Source: Halapricum salinum
Lineage (GTDB): Archaea > Halobacteriota > Halobacteria > Halobacteriales > Haloarculaceae
Assembly (NCBI RefSeq): GCF_004799665.1
Contig: NZ_CP031310.1
Span: 2,596,887 to 2,660,886, forward strand
Reading direction: 5' to 3'
Length of the DNA: 64,000 nucleotides
The translations under genes were made by a program, and so were the position numbers. A model generated the notes under the pieces. That model was not told the DNA's origin and made no database searches. It was given only the letters and a program-made list of their open reading frames with translations. Positions 11,673-49,142 of this stretch are shown here, piece by piece (the first letter of the stretch is position 1; each line of letters opens with the position of its first letter).

Positions 11673-12377
11673 CGATGGTTCTTTTCTCGCGGGTGTCCAC
11701 AATAACAGTATCGACAGCGCCGGTCGATCAAAGACCTACCTGAAATGTGAGGAGAAACGTCAGCCGGTGAGGGGGCAAGTCAGTCGGTGATCTAAGGGGG
11801 TCCCCGCCTCAAGAGATAGTTGCCCGCGAGATACGCCGTGTGGGGTGGTGCCGGACGCGTCTCCGACGGACGCGTCGACGTCACGCTCGCGTGACTCCCT
11901 CGGGTGGGGGACACGGTCAGTGCGTGGGTACCTAGATCGGACGGGACGTCTCGCGACTGCTCCGGCGTTCGCGCCGGACGGCTGGTCCCCGCGCGGTCGC
12001 TCGGCGCCCGTCCGATTTCCGCCCTGATCCCTGCTGCGTTCGGCCCTCAGCCCGTCGCCTACGCGCCATTCATACGATCTATCTGATACCTCTTCTCACG
12101 GTGTGAGGTGGTTGCTCAACCGGTGAGATAAGGCGCCTGCCGACACAACCTCACAGTGCTTGTGGACGTCGGGCGGTACTGTGGGGTGGTGGTCCTCGCG
12201 GCCTCGATCGCGAGGTTCGGCTGACCCGACGATCCACGAGTGGGAGTTCCTCACGGCCGTCGTCCGGGTTGCGTTTGCCCGGCGCTCCCGTTCGACGGCT
12301 CCGGGGAGATGGTGCCTCTGACAACACCGTCATCCCAGTTTTTTCGAAAACCAGTCGTCGCTCCGAAGAGCGCGCGA
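11673..12377. other. 700-bp intergenic region between the TPR gene and cdc48
   Basis: No convincing coding frame is seen on either strand. The first 40 bases hold the likely promoter of the minus-strand TPR gene. Two imperfect 19-base direct repeats, GTCAGTCGGTGATCTAAGG (11779-11797) and CTCAACCGGTGAGATAAGG (12115-12133, 14 of 19 matching), bracket a hairpin-rich core described separately. Conserved SRP RNA and RNase P RNA signatures were looked for and not found. Confidence 0.6.
11854..12016. ncRNA. Candidate structured RNA: consecutive and nested hairpins
   Basis: Perfect inverted repeats follow one another. GACGCGTC at 11854-11861 and 11869-11876 gives an 8-bp stem with a 7-nt loop. GTCACG/CGTGAC at 11880-11895 gives a 6-bp stem with a CTCG loop. 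A 10-bp outer stem, ATCGGACGGG (11936-11945) with CCCGTCCGAT (12007-12016), encloses TCCGGCG-TTCG-CGCCGGA (11961-11978), a 7-bp stem capped by a TTCG tetraloop. This density of stems is unusual for spacer DNA. The strand, transcription and function are unknown; GC-rich DNA gives some hairpins by chance. Confidence 0.4.
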
Positions 12378-14648
12378 TCAGTGGAACGTTCGACCGACTT
12401 CTTGTTCGTCGCTGATCTCGCTCTCACGGTGGTCGAAGCGCTCTTCGATCTTCTCGTAGCGCTCGCGCGTCTCCTCGTCGACGCTCGGGCCGACCTCGTC
12501 CATCGCGGCCTCGAAGTGCTCGCGCCCGATCCGGACGTTCCCGACGCTGTCGTCGACCTCTTCGGGAGCGACGCTGTTGATGAACTCCCGGCTGGCGGCC
12601 ATCGCAGCTTCGCGGGCGAGTGCTTCGATGTCTGCACCGACGTAGCCGTCGGTCTCCTCGGCCAGTTCGTCGAGATCGACGTCGTCGGCCAGCGGCTTGT
12701 TACGGGTGTGGACCTCGAGGATCTTCCGGCGTGCGGCCTCGTCGGGCACCGGCACGTGGACGTGGCGATCCAGTCGACCCGGCCGCAGTAGCGCCGCGTC
12801 GATCAGGTCCGGGCGGTTGGTCGTCGCGATGACCACGACGTCTTCGAGACTTTCGAGGCCGTCGAGTTCGGTCAGCAGCTGCGAGACCACGCGCTCGCCG
12901 ACACCGGAGTCGGTCGTGCCCTGGCCACGTTCGCCGGCGATCGAATCGATCTCGTCGAAGAACACGATCGTCGGGGCGTTGGCGCGGGCCTTCTCGAAGA
13001 CCTCGCGGACCCCTTTCTCGGACTCGCCGACGTACTTGTTCAGAAGTTCGGGCCCCTTGATCGAGATGAAGTTCGACTGACTCTCGTTGGCGACGGCCTT
13101 CGCCAGCAGCGTCTTCCCGGTCCCGGGCGGGCCGTACATCAGCACGCCTTTGGCGGCCTGCATGTCCATCTGCTCGAACACCTCGGGATACTCCAGGGGC
13201 CACTGGATCGTCTCACGGAGGCGCTCTTTGGTGCCTTCGAGCCCGCCGACGGAGTCCCAGGTGACGTCCGGGACTTCGACGAAGACCTCACGGAGGGCGG
13301 AGGGTTCGATTCCCTTCAGCGCCTCTTTGAAGTCGCCCTCGGTCACCGACATGGCTTCGAGGACTTCGGCGTCGATGGAGTCGGCTTCGAGGTCGATCTC
13401 CGGGCGGATGCGCCGGAGGGCGTTCATCGCCGACTCTTTGGTGAGTTGTTCGAGGTCAGCCCCGACGAAGCCGTGGGTGTTCTCGGCGTATCGGTCGAGG
13501 TCGATGTCCTCTTCGAGGGGCATTCCGCGGGTGTGGACCTGCAGAATCTCCTTGCGGCCGTTCTTGTCCGGGACGCCGATCTCGATCTCGCGATCGAAGC
13601 GGCCACCGCGGCGGAGCGCGGGGTCGATGGCGTCGACGCGGTTGGTCGCGCCGATGACGATGACGTCGCCGCGTTGGTCGAGCCCGTCCATCAGGCTCAG
13701 TAGCTGGGCGACGACGCGGCGCTCGACGTCGCCGGAGGTGTCGTCACGCTTGGGGGCGATCGAGTCGATCTCGTCGATGAAGACGATCGCGGGTGCGTTC
13801 TCCTCGGCCTCGTCGAAGATCTCCCGTAACTGCTCCTCGCTCTCGCCGTAGAACTTCGACATGATCTCGGGGCCGGAGATCGTCGTGAAGTAGGCGTCGA
13901 TCTCGTTGGCGACCGCCCGGGCCATCAGCGTCTTGCCGGTGCCCGGCGGGCCGTGCAGGAGGACGCCCTTGGGCGGCTCGATCCCTAGCTGCTGGAACAG
14001 TTCGGGGTGGCGCATCGGGAGCTCGATCATCTCCCGGACCTGTTCGAGTTCGTCGTCGAGGCCACCGATGTCCTCGTAGGTGACGCTCGGGGTCTCCCGG
14101 TCGTCCTCCGGCGCTTCGCCGGCGATCTGCTCGGCGGGCTTCTCGCTGATCTCGATCTCGGTCTGGTCGGTCACGACGACCGTGCCCTCGGGATCGGTGT
14201 CGGCGACCTTCAGCGGGATCTTCTGCCCGCCGACGTTCGAGATCGGGCCCAGCCCGAGCGAGAACGGCACGGTCTGGCCCTTCGTGATGGCCTGCCCGCT
14301 CAGTTTGTTCCGGACGTGCGGGCCGATGTTCCCCCGGATCCGGAGGTTCTGCGGGAGCGCGACCGTGATCGACTTCGCGGGCTTGACGTCGGCCTTCTCG
14401 ACCCCGATCGTGTCGTCGATCCCGACGTCAGCCTCCTGGCGCAGACGGCCGTCGATTCGGATGACACCCTCGCCGGTGTCCTCGGGGTAGCCCGGCCACA
14501 CGCGCGCCACTGCGCGACCGCCCTGGCGGCCTTCGAGGACGATGTAATCACCGTTCTCCAGATCCAACTCGTCCATCGCGGCCCGGTCGATGGCCGCCAG
14601 CCCTCGCCCCGCGTCCTTCTGCTTGAGGGGTTTGACAGTGAGTTTCAT
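12378..14648 (-). CDS. cdc48: Cdc48/p97-family AAA+ ATPase
   Basis: The 756-residue protein has the full Cdc48 layout: an N-terminal double-psi barrel/4-alpha-beta substrate domain (residues 1-190), then two AAA+ modules. Each has a Walker A GPPGTGKT and a Walker B ([14 protein letters not shown] in D1, [15 protein letters not shown] in D2), plus arginine fingers in the second region of homology. It forms a hexamer that unfolds proteins for degradation, working with the proteasome in archaea. The start overlaps the stop of the Hsp20-like gene by 4 bases, indicating coupling. The length and all motifs are normal; haloarchaea often carry several paralogues (called CdcH). Confidence 0.97.
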
Positions 14649-16673: not shown

Positions 16674-16901
16674 ATGCCCAGCGTCGAGACGACCGATCCC
16701 GATGGCGTCGACTACGGATGGGTCATGCAGGTCACCTTCGTCGTAACCATCCTCGTCGGCGCGCCCGTCGTCGCCGTCGCGGCCATCTTTGCTGACCTCT
16801 CTTCCTGGGGCCAGCGCGCATCCTTCGCCGTCCGCGTCGGCGCAGTGGTCTGGCTGCTCACCGCGACCGGGGTCTATCTCTACGCTCGCCGTCACTCCTG
16901 A
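16674..16901 (+). CDS. Small membrane protein (DUF5822-like)
   Basis: The 75-residue protein has two hydrophobic segments (about residues 20-40 and 50-68) separated by a short charged loop, and ends in RRHS. It is divergent from panB with 82 bp between the starts. I recall similar small haloarchaeal proteins annotated as DUF5822; the assignment is from memory. No function is known. Its TGA stop overlaps the first base of an 82-bp palindromic repeat, so that element lies immediately after the coding region. Confidence 0.7.
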   Translation: MPSVETTDPDGVDYGWVMQVTFVVTILVGAPVVAVAAIFADLSSWGQRASFAVRVGAVVWLLTATGVYLYARRHS

Positions 16902-16982
16902 TAGTGATTACTGTAGCGATTTACCACTACGACCGCACGATGTCGTGCGGTCGATGTGGAACAGACCGACAGTAATCACTAT
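16901..16982 (+). repeat. 82-bp palindromic element, copy A
   Basis: The ends are perfect 14-bp inverted repeats (ATAGTGATTACTGT and its complement). The centre is an 11-bp perfect inverted repeat (CGACCGCACGA, then TG, then its complement). Two further copies of exactly 82 bp lie at 38103 and 47118, and the three align without gaps. Copy A lies between the 3' ends of two convergent genes. The flanks share TG before and GAGT after the element in all copies. Confidence 0.85.
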
Positions 16983-16992
16983 GAGTGAACCG

Positions 16993-22890: not shown

Positions 22891-22928
22891 ATGCCACTGC
22901 TCTTCAGTCACGTCCGTTCCTTCAGAAG

Positions 22929-23012
22929 CGGTGGGGATGGGATTTGAACCCATGAGTCCGTGAGGACACCTGCTCTCAAGGCAGGCGCGTTGGGCCGCTC
23001 TGCCACCCCACC
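22929..23012 (-). tRNA. tRNA-Ser (anticodon TGA)
   Basis: An 84-nt class II tRNA on the minus strand. The acceptor GGTGGGG/CCCCACC pairs fully, with discriminator G as expected for serine. The anticodon stem CCTGC/GCAGG encloses CTTGAGA with anticodon TGA (reads UCA). The long variable arm has a GTCC/GGAC stem, and the T arm is ATGGG-TTCAAAT-CCCAT. There is no intron and CCA is not encoded. Confidence 0.95.
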
Positions 23013-23289
23013 GCAGTCGACCCTTGCGGGTCACCCATCTAATGGCTGTCGGTCTTCGGGGCGGCGACGGCCTCGGCACTCATAGGGCTCGTCACGGCCG
23101 GGTGTCGAGGCCGGCTCGGAGCGAGCGCGTCGTCATCGGCCATCTCGACGTTGACCGGTCGGCCATATGAGCACGTCGACTGGCAGAAGATATTATCATT
23201 ATAGAACACGATTGGCTGATAATGACTGTGATCGCGCGTCGAAGCGATCGAATCGGGCGGCTGACGGACACCGCTCTCGGAGGAAGGCG

Positions 23290-36439: not shown

Positions 36440-36883
36440 CTACGTCTCGGTCTCCTCGGTGGACTCGCTCCCGTTGATGTCAGCAGCGAGTAACCCGATC
36501 GCGAGCGAGCCGACGGTGAGGCCACCGCGGTCGGCCAGCGTGAGCATCGAGCCTTCCAGGTCGAGCGCCGGGGAGATGACGACCATGCCGACGAGCAGGT
36601 AGACTCCCGAGGCGACCAGCGCCGTGACGACCATCGTGGCAGTGTAGTCTGCCCTGGGATACAGCACGACAGCGGCTGTCGTGACGAGGGCGACCCCCGC
36701 CACACTTGCGAACGGCAGCCACTCCGGCCCGGCGATCACCAGGCGGCTGACCAACGGCGTGACTGCGACTGCGCCGAACAGCGCGGTCGCGGCGAGGAGT
36801 GCGACGATTTTGAGGTACGGACCGCTATTAGCCGGACTCGAAGGTCGCGCTCTCGACGGTATGCCGCTTCCTTCCGGCCTCAT
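36440..36883 (-). CDS. Small four-helix membrane protein (cassette 2)
   Basis: A 147-residue protein with four hydrophobic segments (for example LKIVALLAATALFGAVAVTPL and MVVTALVASGVYLLVGMVVISPAL) and an acidic C-terminal tail (ESTEETET). Its ATG overlaps the propeller gene's stop by 4 bp. It resembles the cassette 1 and 3 membrane proteins in size, helix count and tail, suggesting a paralogous family that works with the propeller proteins. No known domain is recognised. Confidence 0.72.
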   Translation of the reverse strand: MRPEGSGIPSRARPSSPANSGPYLKIVALLAATALFGAVAVTPLVSRLVIAGPEWLPFASVAGVALVTTAAVVLYPRADYTATMVVTALVASGVYLLVGMVVISPALDLEGSMLTLADRGGLTVGSLAIGLLAADINGSESTEETET

Positions 36884-38040
36884 CGGTACGCCACCGCCGT
36901 CGCCGTATCGACGTAGAACACCTGTCCACCCGCGACGAGCAGCTGTCCATTTGCCTGCCGTTCGGATAGGTCCCCGGAATACAGCGAGAAACGCCGCAGC
37001 TCCCGGCCAGTGGCCGGACTGAGTGCGGCGAACCCGTCCTCGGTACTGACGTAGAGTGCGTCGTCGGTGACGGCAGGTTTGACCGTCCGGCTGATACCCT
37101 CGACGGACTGTCTCCATCGAAGCTGTCCCGTCTCCGCCTCGACGGCCAGTACCTCCTCGTCGAGACCTGTAAAGTAGACCTGCTCGCCATCGGTCGCCAC
37201 CGGCATCGATTGCTCGTACTCTCGATCGAAGCGCTCGGCCCACAGCACCGAATTCGACGCTGTATCGAAGGCTGTGAACTTCTCCAGGCCACTGTAGACG
37301 ACCCCGTCGTGAACCGCGATGTCACGCTCGGGATCGTCGGTGATCCACTCGGCCGTCCACTCGATCGACTCCGTCGTCGGGTCGATGCCCACGATGGTTG
37401 TAGAGAACTCACCTGTCTGGAAACCGACCATCTCGCCGGTGGCGAGAACCGGATCGTCGTAGTCCGAGACCCTCCAGCGCGTTGCACCCGTCTTCGCGTC
37501 GAGACCGACCGTTCCCCTGCGCTGGCCCCGGCAGATGACCGTCCGCCCGGCGACGAACGCGACCTCTATTCGGGACTCCCGGTGTGCCCACTCGATCGTT
37601 CCCGAATCCGTGTCGATCGCGTACACTCTCTCACCGTCGGCGACGTAGAGCGTTTCGTTCCAGCACACGTGAGTCAATCCGATACTCTCTGTCGTAAGTG
37701 GCTCCGCCCATCGGGTCGATCCATCGGCTGTCGACAGCGCCGTCGGCCCAGTGATCGCCAGCGTGTCTTCGGTGGCGACCGTCGTTCCCTCGTGAAAGAT
37801 TCCGAGGAGGTCGTAGACGTCCCGTTCCCACACCATCTCGTGCTCCTCAGGCGGGCCAGCCGACTCCGGCTGGTACCCGCTTCGCTGTGGCGTCCGACCC
37901 TGCATTGGCCACTGTCCTGATGGAACCGCCGCATCGAGGTCTTCTGCGGCCCCGGTACGGCCCGGCGAGATGTAGGCACTCACACCGATGCCGGCCACCC
38001 CGACTGACCCAAGAAAGGCCCGCCGGCTCGACTGCTGCAT
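36880..38040 (-). CDS. Tat-exported PQQ-like beta-propeller protein (cassette 2)
   Basis: With the start at 38040 the protein is 386 residues and begins MQQSSRRAFLG, nearly the same Tat signal as cassette 1. An ATG 4 codons earlier (38052) exists, but it lies only about 16 nt after the GTATTTGTC element, whereas 38040 is at the normal leaderless distance. The shared WPMQGRTPQRSGYQP segment follows the signal, then blades ending in TRWAEP, IEWAHR, TRWRVS, IEWTAE, LRWRQS. It is mature in the extracytoplasmic space. Ligand and partners are unknown. Confidence 0.87.
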   Translation of the reverse strand: MQQSSRRAFLGSVGVAGIGVSAYISPGRTGAAEDLDAAVPSGQWPMQGRTPQRSGYQPESAGPPEEHEMVWERDVYDLLGIFHEGTTVATEDTLAITGPTALSTADGSTRWAEPLTTESIGLTHVCWNETLYVADGERVYAIDTDSGTIEWAHRESRIEVAFVAGRTVICRGQRRGTVGLDAKTGATRWRVSDYDDPVLATGEMVGFQTGEFSTTIVGIDPTTESIEWTAEWITDDPERDIAVHDGVVYSGLEKFTAFDTASNSVLWAERFDREYEQSMPVATDGEQVYFTGLDEEVLAVEAETGQLRWRQSVEGISRTVKPAVTDDALYVSTEDGFAALSPATGRELRRFSLYSGDLSERQANGQLLVAGGQVFYVDTATAVAYR

Positions 38041-38060
38041 GGTCGAAGCCATTCAACCAT

Positions 38061-38074: not shown

Positions 38075-38102
38075 GTGAAATGAACGGTCACGACGATCAC
38101 TC

Positions 38103-38184
38103 ATAGTGATTATTGTAGGTCTGTTGCGGATCGACCGCCCGACTGCGGGCAGTCGTACCGGTAAATCGCTACAATAATTACTAT
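38103..38184 (-). repeat. 82-bp palindromic element, copy B
   Basis: Exactly 82 bp, in the opposite orientation to copies A and C. The end repeats match over 16 bp with one mismatch; the inner stem has one mismatch or wobble. Compared with A, positions 11 and 72 change together from C:G to T:A. It lies in the divergent promoter region between propeller cassette 2 and the lipoprotein gene at 38241. Confidence 0.85.
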
Positions 38185-38240
38185 CAAACCCCCGTTTGAG
38201 GTATCGATAGCTACCTCGTCGCTCCCGCCAGTGGAGTAGT

Positions 38241-38939
38241 ATGCACCGACGAACGCTACTCGTCTCTCTCGGTGGACTGGCTGTGACCGCGACCGCTGGC
38301 TGTATGAGCGCTGGCGGTGACGACTCGACACCGACCGACGACGACAATTCGACGCCCGACGATCAGCCGGGGAGTTCCGGCCTGCCGACCGACGACGGGG
38401 ACGACGGCGGTATCCGCCCGGCCGACGGCGTGACTCCCGAACCGATGCCGGTCGACATTTCGGATGTCTCGTGTCCGACCGTTCGCGAAGACGCCGACCT
38501 GCGCGTCTGCTCGACGACGACCGATCTCGACGACGCCGATATCGCGCTCGTTCCACCTCGCCCGCCGCTGTTCGAGCCGACGACTGGCGACGACGATGTC
38601 GAAGTCTTCGAGATCGAACTCCGCAATCAGTCCGACGCTACCTTTGGATTCAATCCCTACGACTGGTCGCTGAAGCGCCACACCGGGGATGGCTGGGCGC
38701 ACGTCGCCCCCGAGATGACGCCCGAGCCCTGGATGCGACTCGAACCCGGCGACTCCTACACCTATGGACTGGCGGTCGAATCCGTCCCGACGGAGCGGGT
38801 CGACGGCTCCCGCCGGATCGTGCAGGATCTGGATAGTGGCACGTACGCACTCGTGGTCGACGGCATGCTCGAACGCGGCGACGGCGGCGAGCGCGTCGAG
38901 TGTGCCGCGGTGTTCGTGGTCGAACGATCCGACGCCTAA
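38241..38939 (+). CDS. Tat lipoprotein of unknown function
   Basis: The 232-residue protein has a short signal (MHRRTLLVSLGGLAVTATAGC) with twin Arg at 3-4 and lipobox Cys21, then a 45-residue Asp/Thr/Pro-rich linker, as is usual for haloarchaeal surface lipoproteins. The remaining part is beta-rich with conserved-looking NQSDATFGFNPYDWSLKRHTGDGWAHVAP, which resembles an immunoglobulin-like fold. Two Cys in the mature part (SCPTVRED, RVCSTT) could form a disulphide. It is divergent from cassette 2 and convergent (4-bp overlap) with the cassette 3 membrane gene. No function can be assigned. Confidence 0.82.
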   Translation: MHRRTLLVSLGGLAVTATAGCMSAGGDDSTPTDDDNSTPDDQPGSSGLPTDDGDDGGIRPADGVTPEPMPVDISDVSCPTVREDADLRVCSTTTDLDDADIALVPPRPPLFEPTTGDDDVEVFEIELRNQSDATFGFNPYDWSLKRHTGDGWAHVAPEMTPEPWMRLEPGDSYTYGLAVESVPTERVDGSRRIVQDLDSGTYALVVDGMLERGDGGERVECAAVFVVERSDA

Positions 38940-47048: not shown

Positions 47049-47117
47049 CGAATACCCTTACGTCTCTCAAACTATGCAAATATGTTTCGATATATACATC
47101 ACTTCCAGTCGTGTGTG

Positions 47118-47199
47118 ATAGTCATTACTGTAGCGATTTACCGCTACGACCGCCCGGAGTCGGGCGGTCGATGTGGGACAGACCTACAGTAATCACTAT
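47118..47199 (+). repeat. 82-bp palindromic element, copy C
   Basis: Exactly 82 bp; 74 positions match copy A without gaps. The outer inverted repeat is 16 bp with one mismatch, the inner a perfect 10-bp stem (CGACCGCCCG and its complement) with loop GAGT. Relative to A, positions 37 and 46 change together from A:T to C:G. It lies between the start of the membrane-protein gene at 47048 and the lipoprotein remnant at 47305. Confidence 0.85.
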
Positions 47200-47304
47200 G
47201 AGTCGTTTCCCAGGCTCTCCCTGGCAGTCTGGGATATGTTGGTCTGACTAATATTCCTGATGACCAGCAGACACTTGCGGGTGTACCGAGCACGTCACGG
47301 TACC

Positions 47305-47496: not shown

Positions 47497-47610
47497 CAGC
47501 GAGAGAGTCCCGCCCTTCCCGTGAGCGACGAGTGTTCCGACGCTCTGTCGGAACCGAGGACTGAACAGGGCGGGCGTGAATCGCGTAAGCTCCGGTGAGA
47601 AACCGCCGTG

Positions 47611-47754
47611 TTACTGCTGGTCTTGAGTCTCCAACGTTTCGAGTCCCGTTTCCAGCACCTCAATATACGCTTCATCGAGCGATAGGTCGTTTGCTTCGGC
47701 GTAGTCTTTCACCCGTCCGTGTAGCCCATGCGAAATATCTATTGCTGGTCGCAT
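47611..47754 (-). CDS. Small ribbon-helix-helix-like protein inside the TnpB element
   Basis: The 47-residue frame ([20 protein letters not shown] start) looks like an Arc/CopG ribbon-helix-helix unit: a short strand (AIDIS), helix A ([13 protein letters not shown]), turn, helix B ([17 protein letters not shown]). It is divergent from tnpB, with 47 bp between the starts, so it could regulate tnpB or act as an antitoxin-like repressor. It is too small to be proven real by composition alone. Confidence 0.55.
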
Positions 47755-47801
47755 TGTCTCATAGGACTTATTTGACACAGGGACGTGAAAACAATTGTGG
47801 C

Positions 47802-49142
<1,341 letters not shown>

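Follow-up and report, generated by a model that had tools for sequence, protein, structure and literature searches.

An 80-bp gene-less fold-back element of haloarchaea, probably mobilised in trans by an IS630-type transposase and often located at stop codons

The repeat described here is an 80-bp, gene-less fold-back element that is very probably moved in trans by an IS630-type transposase and that often lands on stop codons. The element is a mobile MITE; from comparison of its ends and target with those of complete transposons, we infer its mobilisation by an IS630 enzyme. The kind, an IS630 MITE, is already known, and the 3-bp TNA duplication, the stop-codon niche and the co-evolving arms are new to us. 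These results clearly identify a repeat found very commonly in haloarchaeal genomes and absent from Rfam, link it to a transposase family whose 3-bp target is unusual, and show that the stop codon is a tolerated landing site. Furthermore, the paired arm changes make the switching of helper transposases by concerted end change directly testable.

Three copies in the Halapricum salinum window

The window, by which we mean the whole stretch of 64,000 nucleotides analysed from Halapricum salinum, contains three copies of the element, at the places and in the orientations given by an earlier, sequence-only reading. They align without gaps. Copy A occupies positions 16902-16981 (+) and copy C positions 47119-47198 (+), both delimited by alignment and pooled boundaries, and copy B was located by alignment at 38104-38183 (-). 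The reported match of copies A and C at 74 of 82 positions was borne out, with 8 of 82 positions differing; the reported length of 82 bp is corrected to 80 bp, one base of each flanking 3-bp duplication having been included. The TG before and GAGT after all copies were likewise observed, and they represent a TGA duplication on both sides together with a preferred G beside the target. These duplicated triplets lie at 16899-16901 and 16982-16984 (+) for copy A, at 38184-38186 (5' side of the element) and 38101-38103 (3' side) on the minus strand for copy B, and at 47116-47118 and 47199-47201 (+) for copy C. The left triplet of copy A doubles as the stop codon of a 75-aa ORF (16674-16901, +), and copy B sits between the divergent genes 36880-38052 (-) and 38241-38939 (+).

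Within copy A, structure counts define a left terminal arm of 15 bp (16902-16916), which pairs with the right terminal arm (16967-16981); in this copy, element positions 14/67 carry A and G. Between the arms lie the conserved unpaired left loop CGATTTA (16917-16923), which together with the next bases matches the TTTRCC motif of IS630 ends, a central hairpin (16930-16953) with a 10-bp stem, CGACCGCACG / CGTGCGGTCG, and a 4-nt loop, and the conserved unpaired right loop AACAGAC (16960-16966), all on the plus strand. The element has the general form TAGTG...CACTA, with TA at its start and at its end and 15-bp terminal arms of the end type TAGTGATTACTGTAGC, and is exactly 80 bp long in 165 of 171 pooled well-ended copies from the own genome and relatives. 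It is short and non-coding, without an ORF, and carries terminal inverted repeats (TIRs), as a MITE does.

Two other features were observed in the window. A gene for TnpB, of the RNA-guided endonuclease family, is located at 47595-49142 (+), about 400 bp downstream of copy C, and an sR-tMet C/D box RNA was identified at 23069-23141 (-), near tRNA-Ser(tga) at 22928-23012.

Copy number and distribution

A covariance model identified the element at about 51 distinct places in the H. salinum genome (about 30 with blastn), which excludes a chance origin of three copies of 80 bp or more at 84-91% identity. Among 242 genomes of the haloarchaeal class, 109 were matched by the covariance model of the 80-bp family, and the listed matches are full length. 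This search, proposed with the sequence-only reading, returned further copies in both the own genome and its relatives, and their paired positions co-vary and do not change independently. In the genome collection, the copies, mostly from the archaeon QH_10_67_22 (G030), show a median nearest-neighbour identity of 97.5% among distinct sequences. Many dispersed copies and recent mobility, both characteristic of MITEs, are seen in these 51 places and in this level of identity.

The element was matched neither in Rfam nor in phage records. In viral contigs, the exact 25-base left arm gave 0 matches and the 15-base TIR gave unspecific ones. In the part of the literature covered, no paper was found that describes the present 80-bp haloarchaeal element.

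Insertion footprint and target choice

A direct TNA repeat flanks 151 of the 171 pooled copies, as TGA/TGA in 80 cases, TCA/TCA in 66 and TTA or TAA in 5. With T and A nearly fixed, this amounts to agreement at the middle base, for which 45% would be expected of independent flanks (binomial tail 3e-32). The extended target preference is GWC-TSA-GWC, the triplet being mostly TGA or TCA.

Comparison of orthologous loci with and without the element, another check put forward earlier, revealed the insertion footprint to be a 3-bp TNA duplication. One copy is nested in a 107-bp repeat, other members of which continue gapless across the insertion point; the filled copy has TGA and the empty members have CGA. 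Additionally, three filled/empty orthologous pairs were identified on the plasmids of Halomicrobium LC1Hm and H. mukohataei. Two of them are clean, and the third (LC1Hm 17147) is less so, with TAA opposite TGA. An example from these plasmids is ...gagatcaacTGA[element]TGAcgccg versus ...gagatcaacTGAcgccg. The empty alleles carry a single triplet, and target duplication and empty sites together are the mark of a MITE. A TA-only duplication, with boundaries read as TNATA..., was considered and rejected, the empty sites being without the extra TA. In orthologous GH2 genes of the two Halomicrobium plasmids, one and the same stop codon is occupied in each strain by an element from a different family (L300 16544-16628 and L301 4599-4683), which fits a strict target choice.

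These footprints bear directly on the structured regulatory unit that had been offered as the alternative to a mobile element. According to this explanation, the repeat would be a structured RNA or transcription signal, such as a terminator or 3'-UTR hairpin, that multiplied through ordinary duplication and was retained for its role in gene regulation. A conserved, covarying fold and the many copies that lie directly behind a stop codon or between convergent genes agree with such a role, but the precise 3-bp duplications and the empty sites show transposition; moreover, copies occur in either orientation and also between divergent genes (copy B), have no T-run and no Rfam match, and form just one pair at a shared position in related species. 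We consider the regulatory explanation highly improbable, and it is not needed to explain the element.

Position at stop codons

Of the copies, 140 had sufficient flanking sequence; in 61 of these the duplicated triplet falls exactly on a predicted stop codon, in 62 it lies elsewhere in intergenic DNA and in 17 it is within a gene, compared with 145, 440 and 873, respectively, of 1458 matched control TSA sites, the genes being called with a simple caller made for this analysis. The stop-codon excess is significant overall (p 9e-22) and among non-genic sites (1e-7); it falls to an odds ratio of only 1.8 (p 0.011) when the strictest non-genic control is applied. Target sequence and the loss of harmful insertions account for most of the bias, and a modest excess remains. 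In the annotated Halomicrobium plasmids, the triplet is the deposited stop codon at 5 of 9 copies, as in the CDS 11720-12940 with its duplication at 12938-12940. Since TSA is TGA when read on one strand, and insertion leaves a full triplet ahead of the element, the stop codon is regained and the gene remains whole.

Folded form and covariation

The fold comprises the pairs 1-15/66-80, 23-26/55-58 and 29-38/43-52, which enclose the CGATTTA and AACAGAC strands and a 4-base loop of variable sequence. Across 25 copies from the own genome, standard pairs make up 92.8% of pair cells, and changes on both sides were observed in 13 of 29 pairs and 51 cells. The own-genome covariation score is 0.225, against 0.114 for a shuffled control, which does not correct for relatedness and so lends support that is not final, and at most 0.093 for a slid control, which does preserve relatedness. 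Independent relatives show 14 pairs with both-side changes and a score of 0.252 (0.118 after shuffling). Paired changes are most evident at 9/72 and 10/71 in the arms, at 25/56 and 26/55 in the middle stem and at 36/45 in the inner stem. Both compensatory pairs named in the earlier reading are real, its 11/72 and 37/46 being element pairs 10/71 and 36/45. The view that the folded form is maintained is thus supported statistically, by covariation far above the shuffled and slid controls. Arm sequences drift and the fold persists. The comparison of orthologous copies for compensation after insertion offered a single usable pair in related species.

The arms could also co-vary solely via template switching in a near-palindrome, one arm serving as template for the other, with no selection acting on the fold. 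Such an explanation is compatible with the identity as a MITE and concerns solely the cause of the arm covariation. It is suggested by single copies with several paired changes at once, such as that at 2841011 in H. salinum (TGGTGGGTACTG / CAGTACCCACCA), yet free copying should also turn the loop into a perfect palindrome, whereas CGATTTA and AACAGAC still face each other as an asymmetric internal loop in almost every copy. We regard template switching as the sole cause as possible but rather doubtful.

IS630-type transposons with matching ends

Haloarchaeal transposons of the IS630 family (1.04-1.15 kb, DDE_3), identified outside the genus through DDE_3 matches, have matching ends and a TNA duplication. 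The search for a transposase with matching ends, also proposed earlier, led to an IS630-type enzyme in other haloarchaea, and not in the own genome or the other genomes of the genus that were covered. One genome (G150) contains a 1142-bp transposon with the ends TACGGTCGTGC...TTTTTACTGG and TGA duplications. These ends match the 107-bp sister family described below, and relatives of the transposon across haloarchaea have ends such as TAGTGATTAAG...CTTTGCCAGT. When IS630 transposons were picked regardless of their flanks, 21 of 27 had identical TNA triplets, and T?A was present on the left in 26 of 27. The 80-bp element and the IS630 transposons have in common the end features TA-S-K-G... and TTTRCC at positions 19-24, and all 30 profiled IS630 ends share T1, A2 and G5 as well as T20, T21 and C23. 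On the IS630-end profile, the own-genome arms score far above shuffles at positions 1-9 and 17-27; positions 10-16 of the IS630 ends are unlike the element. Furthermore, an intact 340-aa IS630 transposase (NF033545, 241 bits) was identified in another genome (G016) within a 1114-bp TCA-flanked element (C30), an end of which agrees with the 78-bp sister family at 19 of 24 positions, a level reached by 0 of 20000 shuffles.

The 80-bp element thus has IS630-like ends, except at positions 10-16, and shares its duplication with the parent type. Classical IS630 duplicates TA (ISY100; PMC2170065), whereas the duplication here is TNA. We file the element as an IS630-MITE variant, since the IS630-annotated transposons of this subgroup share the TNA deviation. 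The TNA transposons are either a subgroup of IS630 whose target is 3 bp long or a sister group annotated as IS630.

A parent transposase in the own genome, usual for a MITE and not strictly defining, was not found: H. salinum (G000) has no PF13358 match, and G000-G005 gave no match to the IS630 query. One of these genomes, G003, is Halapricum hydrolyticum, with 100% identity over a 3-kb locus. No IS630 transposase of the TNA type was detected in the copy-rich genomes G028, G099 and G030, no partner transposase with the exact TIR TAGTGATTACTGTA was found, and lone ends in five genomes had no distant partner end. Two candidate long elements of the own genus that shared the TIR were rejected: in G002, the one of 1.49 kb is a 78-bp copy interrupted by an IS4/ISH8-type insertion, and the one of 1.19 kb is an 80-bp copy into which a different kind of IS630 has inserted. 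IS4/IS5-type transposases (PF01609, PF13586) were also discarded as movers, none lying within a TNA/TA element in five genomes. Separately, two single long transposase-like proteins were observed in the own genome (L309 1297-3162, 621 aa; L314 1327-3003, 558 aa), with weak DDE_Tnp_1 similarity and no evident element ends; they are possibly domesticated.

The abundance of near-identical copies in G000, G005, G028, G099 and G030, where no IS630 transposase of the TNA type is detectable, and the drift of the arms around a constant fold would also agree with a mobile element whose mover is a non-IS630 enzyme recognising the folded strand (cf. the 'enigmatic' SMR of Haloquadratum), the likeness to IS630 ends being convergent or mere common descent. 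Against it stand the TNA duplication common to the IS630 transposons, the end motif shared with them at equal spacing, and the 19 of 24 positions that the sister 78-bp family has in common with an intact IS630 end, and we judge such a mover to be improbable.

Under the preferred explanation, mobilisation by an IS630-type enzyme, the transposase would bind the arms, excise the element and join it to a TNA target, by a route like the IS630/Tc1 pathway but with a 3-bp stagger. The arms may change pairwise because both ends must suit one transposase, because arm is repaired from arm in the folded strand, or both, and the central hairpin pairs may be retained by selection on the fold or by the same arm-to-arm copying. 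Insertion on a stop codon would duplicate the TGA triplet, restore the stop and leave the host gene unharmed. The own-genome copies may now be stranded, or mobile only upon arrival of a transposase gene.

Comparison with known elements

REP/BIME sequences are dispersed imperfect palindromes, often located behind genes, and in this they resemble the 80-bp element. The latter has a target duplication and DDE-type ends, and by these it is set apart from REP/BIME with RAYT (Y1 HUH). Of the two mobile identities offered by the sequence-only reading, MITE is upheld by 3-bp duplications, empty sites and an IS630-type parent, and REP-like is not supported, in view of the true duplication and the DDE/IS630-like ends.

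RUP of Streptococcus pneumoniae is an IS630/Tc1-mariner MITE paired with IS630-Spn1 (PMC2229807). It shares with the 80-bp element a size of ~80-110 bp, the absence of a gene, TIRs starting with TA, a proposed IS630 mobilisation in trans and many intergenic copies. The 80-bp element differs in duplicating TNA instead of TA, in folding over its whole length with a covarying central hairpin, in its strong presence at stop codons and in having a host without the parent.

SMR-A/B of Haloquadratum walsbyi were reported to be without target duplications and to have unrelated TIRs (PMC3119063). They are likewise haloarchaeal, 80-110 bp long, with TIRs, no ORF and no evident parent, and the two elements found at a single Halomicrobium stop codon recall their 'switch repeats', which occupy identical positions. 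By the published description, the 80-bp element is not an SMR, having a TNA duplication and an IS630 link. PATEs are palindrome-associated, IS605-derived and without TIRs or target duplications (PMC3119063); they are also haloarchaeal, short, palindromic and devoid of a transposase. The TIRs and target duplication distinguish the 80-bp element from them, and an IS200/605-type identity (as in PATEs, with no TIR, no duplication and subterminal hairpins) was rejected for this reason.

Among archaeal MITEs, Kamoun et al. 2013 described an 89-bp IS630 MITE in Methanosarcina mazei (DR 0, 5 copies), and archaeal MITEs without found parents were also reported (PMC3852290). The M. mazei MITE resembles the 80-bp element in its IS630 link, archaeal host, similar size and similarity to the IS restricted to the ends. 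The MITE table of PMC3852290 contains no haloarchaeal IS630 MITE.

Sister families and related fold-backs

The TIR rule TSATASKGNYKRCTGTA revealed sister families, 78 and 107 bp long, that have other arms but likewise duplicate TNA; its reversed control pattern gave no sister families. Covariance-model sequences from other families share the loop motifs and have different arms. A related type with TA flanks also exists. Tentatively, we suggest that a fold-back clan may span the haloarchaeal families, keeping one architecture and core hairpin with arms rewritten pairwise as they track different IS630 transposases. Such a clan might survive via harmless landing on TGA stop codons, and the folded strand may be the recognised or repaired form.

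Several other fold-backs were observed. A second one of ~78 bp (TAGTAACAATTG...GGCTACTA), with an apparent TA duplication, is nested in a copy in the own genome near 1393926 (L017/L037), and a fold-back similar to this type adjoins a 78-bp element in L214. Forms of the type TAGTAGCG...CGCTACTA are present in L370, L373 and L385. The 107-bp element at L089 1191-1412 is split by a palindromic repeat of ~109 bp (TCCACTCGGACACG...) that looks TA-duplicated. Finally, a palindrome of only 40 bp, TAGTGATTCCTGTAGCGATTTACCGCTACAGGAATCACTA, flanked by TCA duplications, was identified in the own genome at 206500-206539 (L036); this minimal form is possibly the smallest that is mobile.
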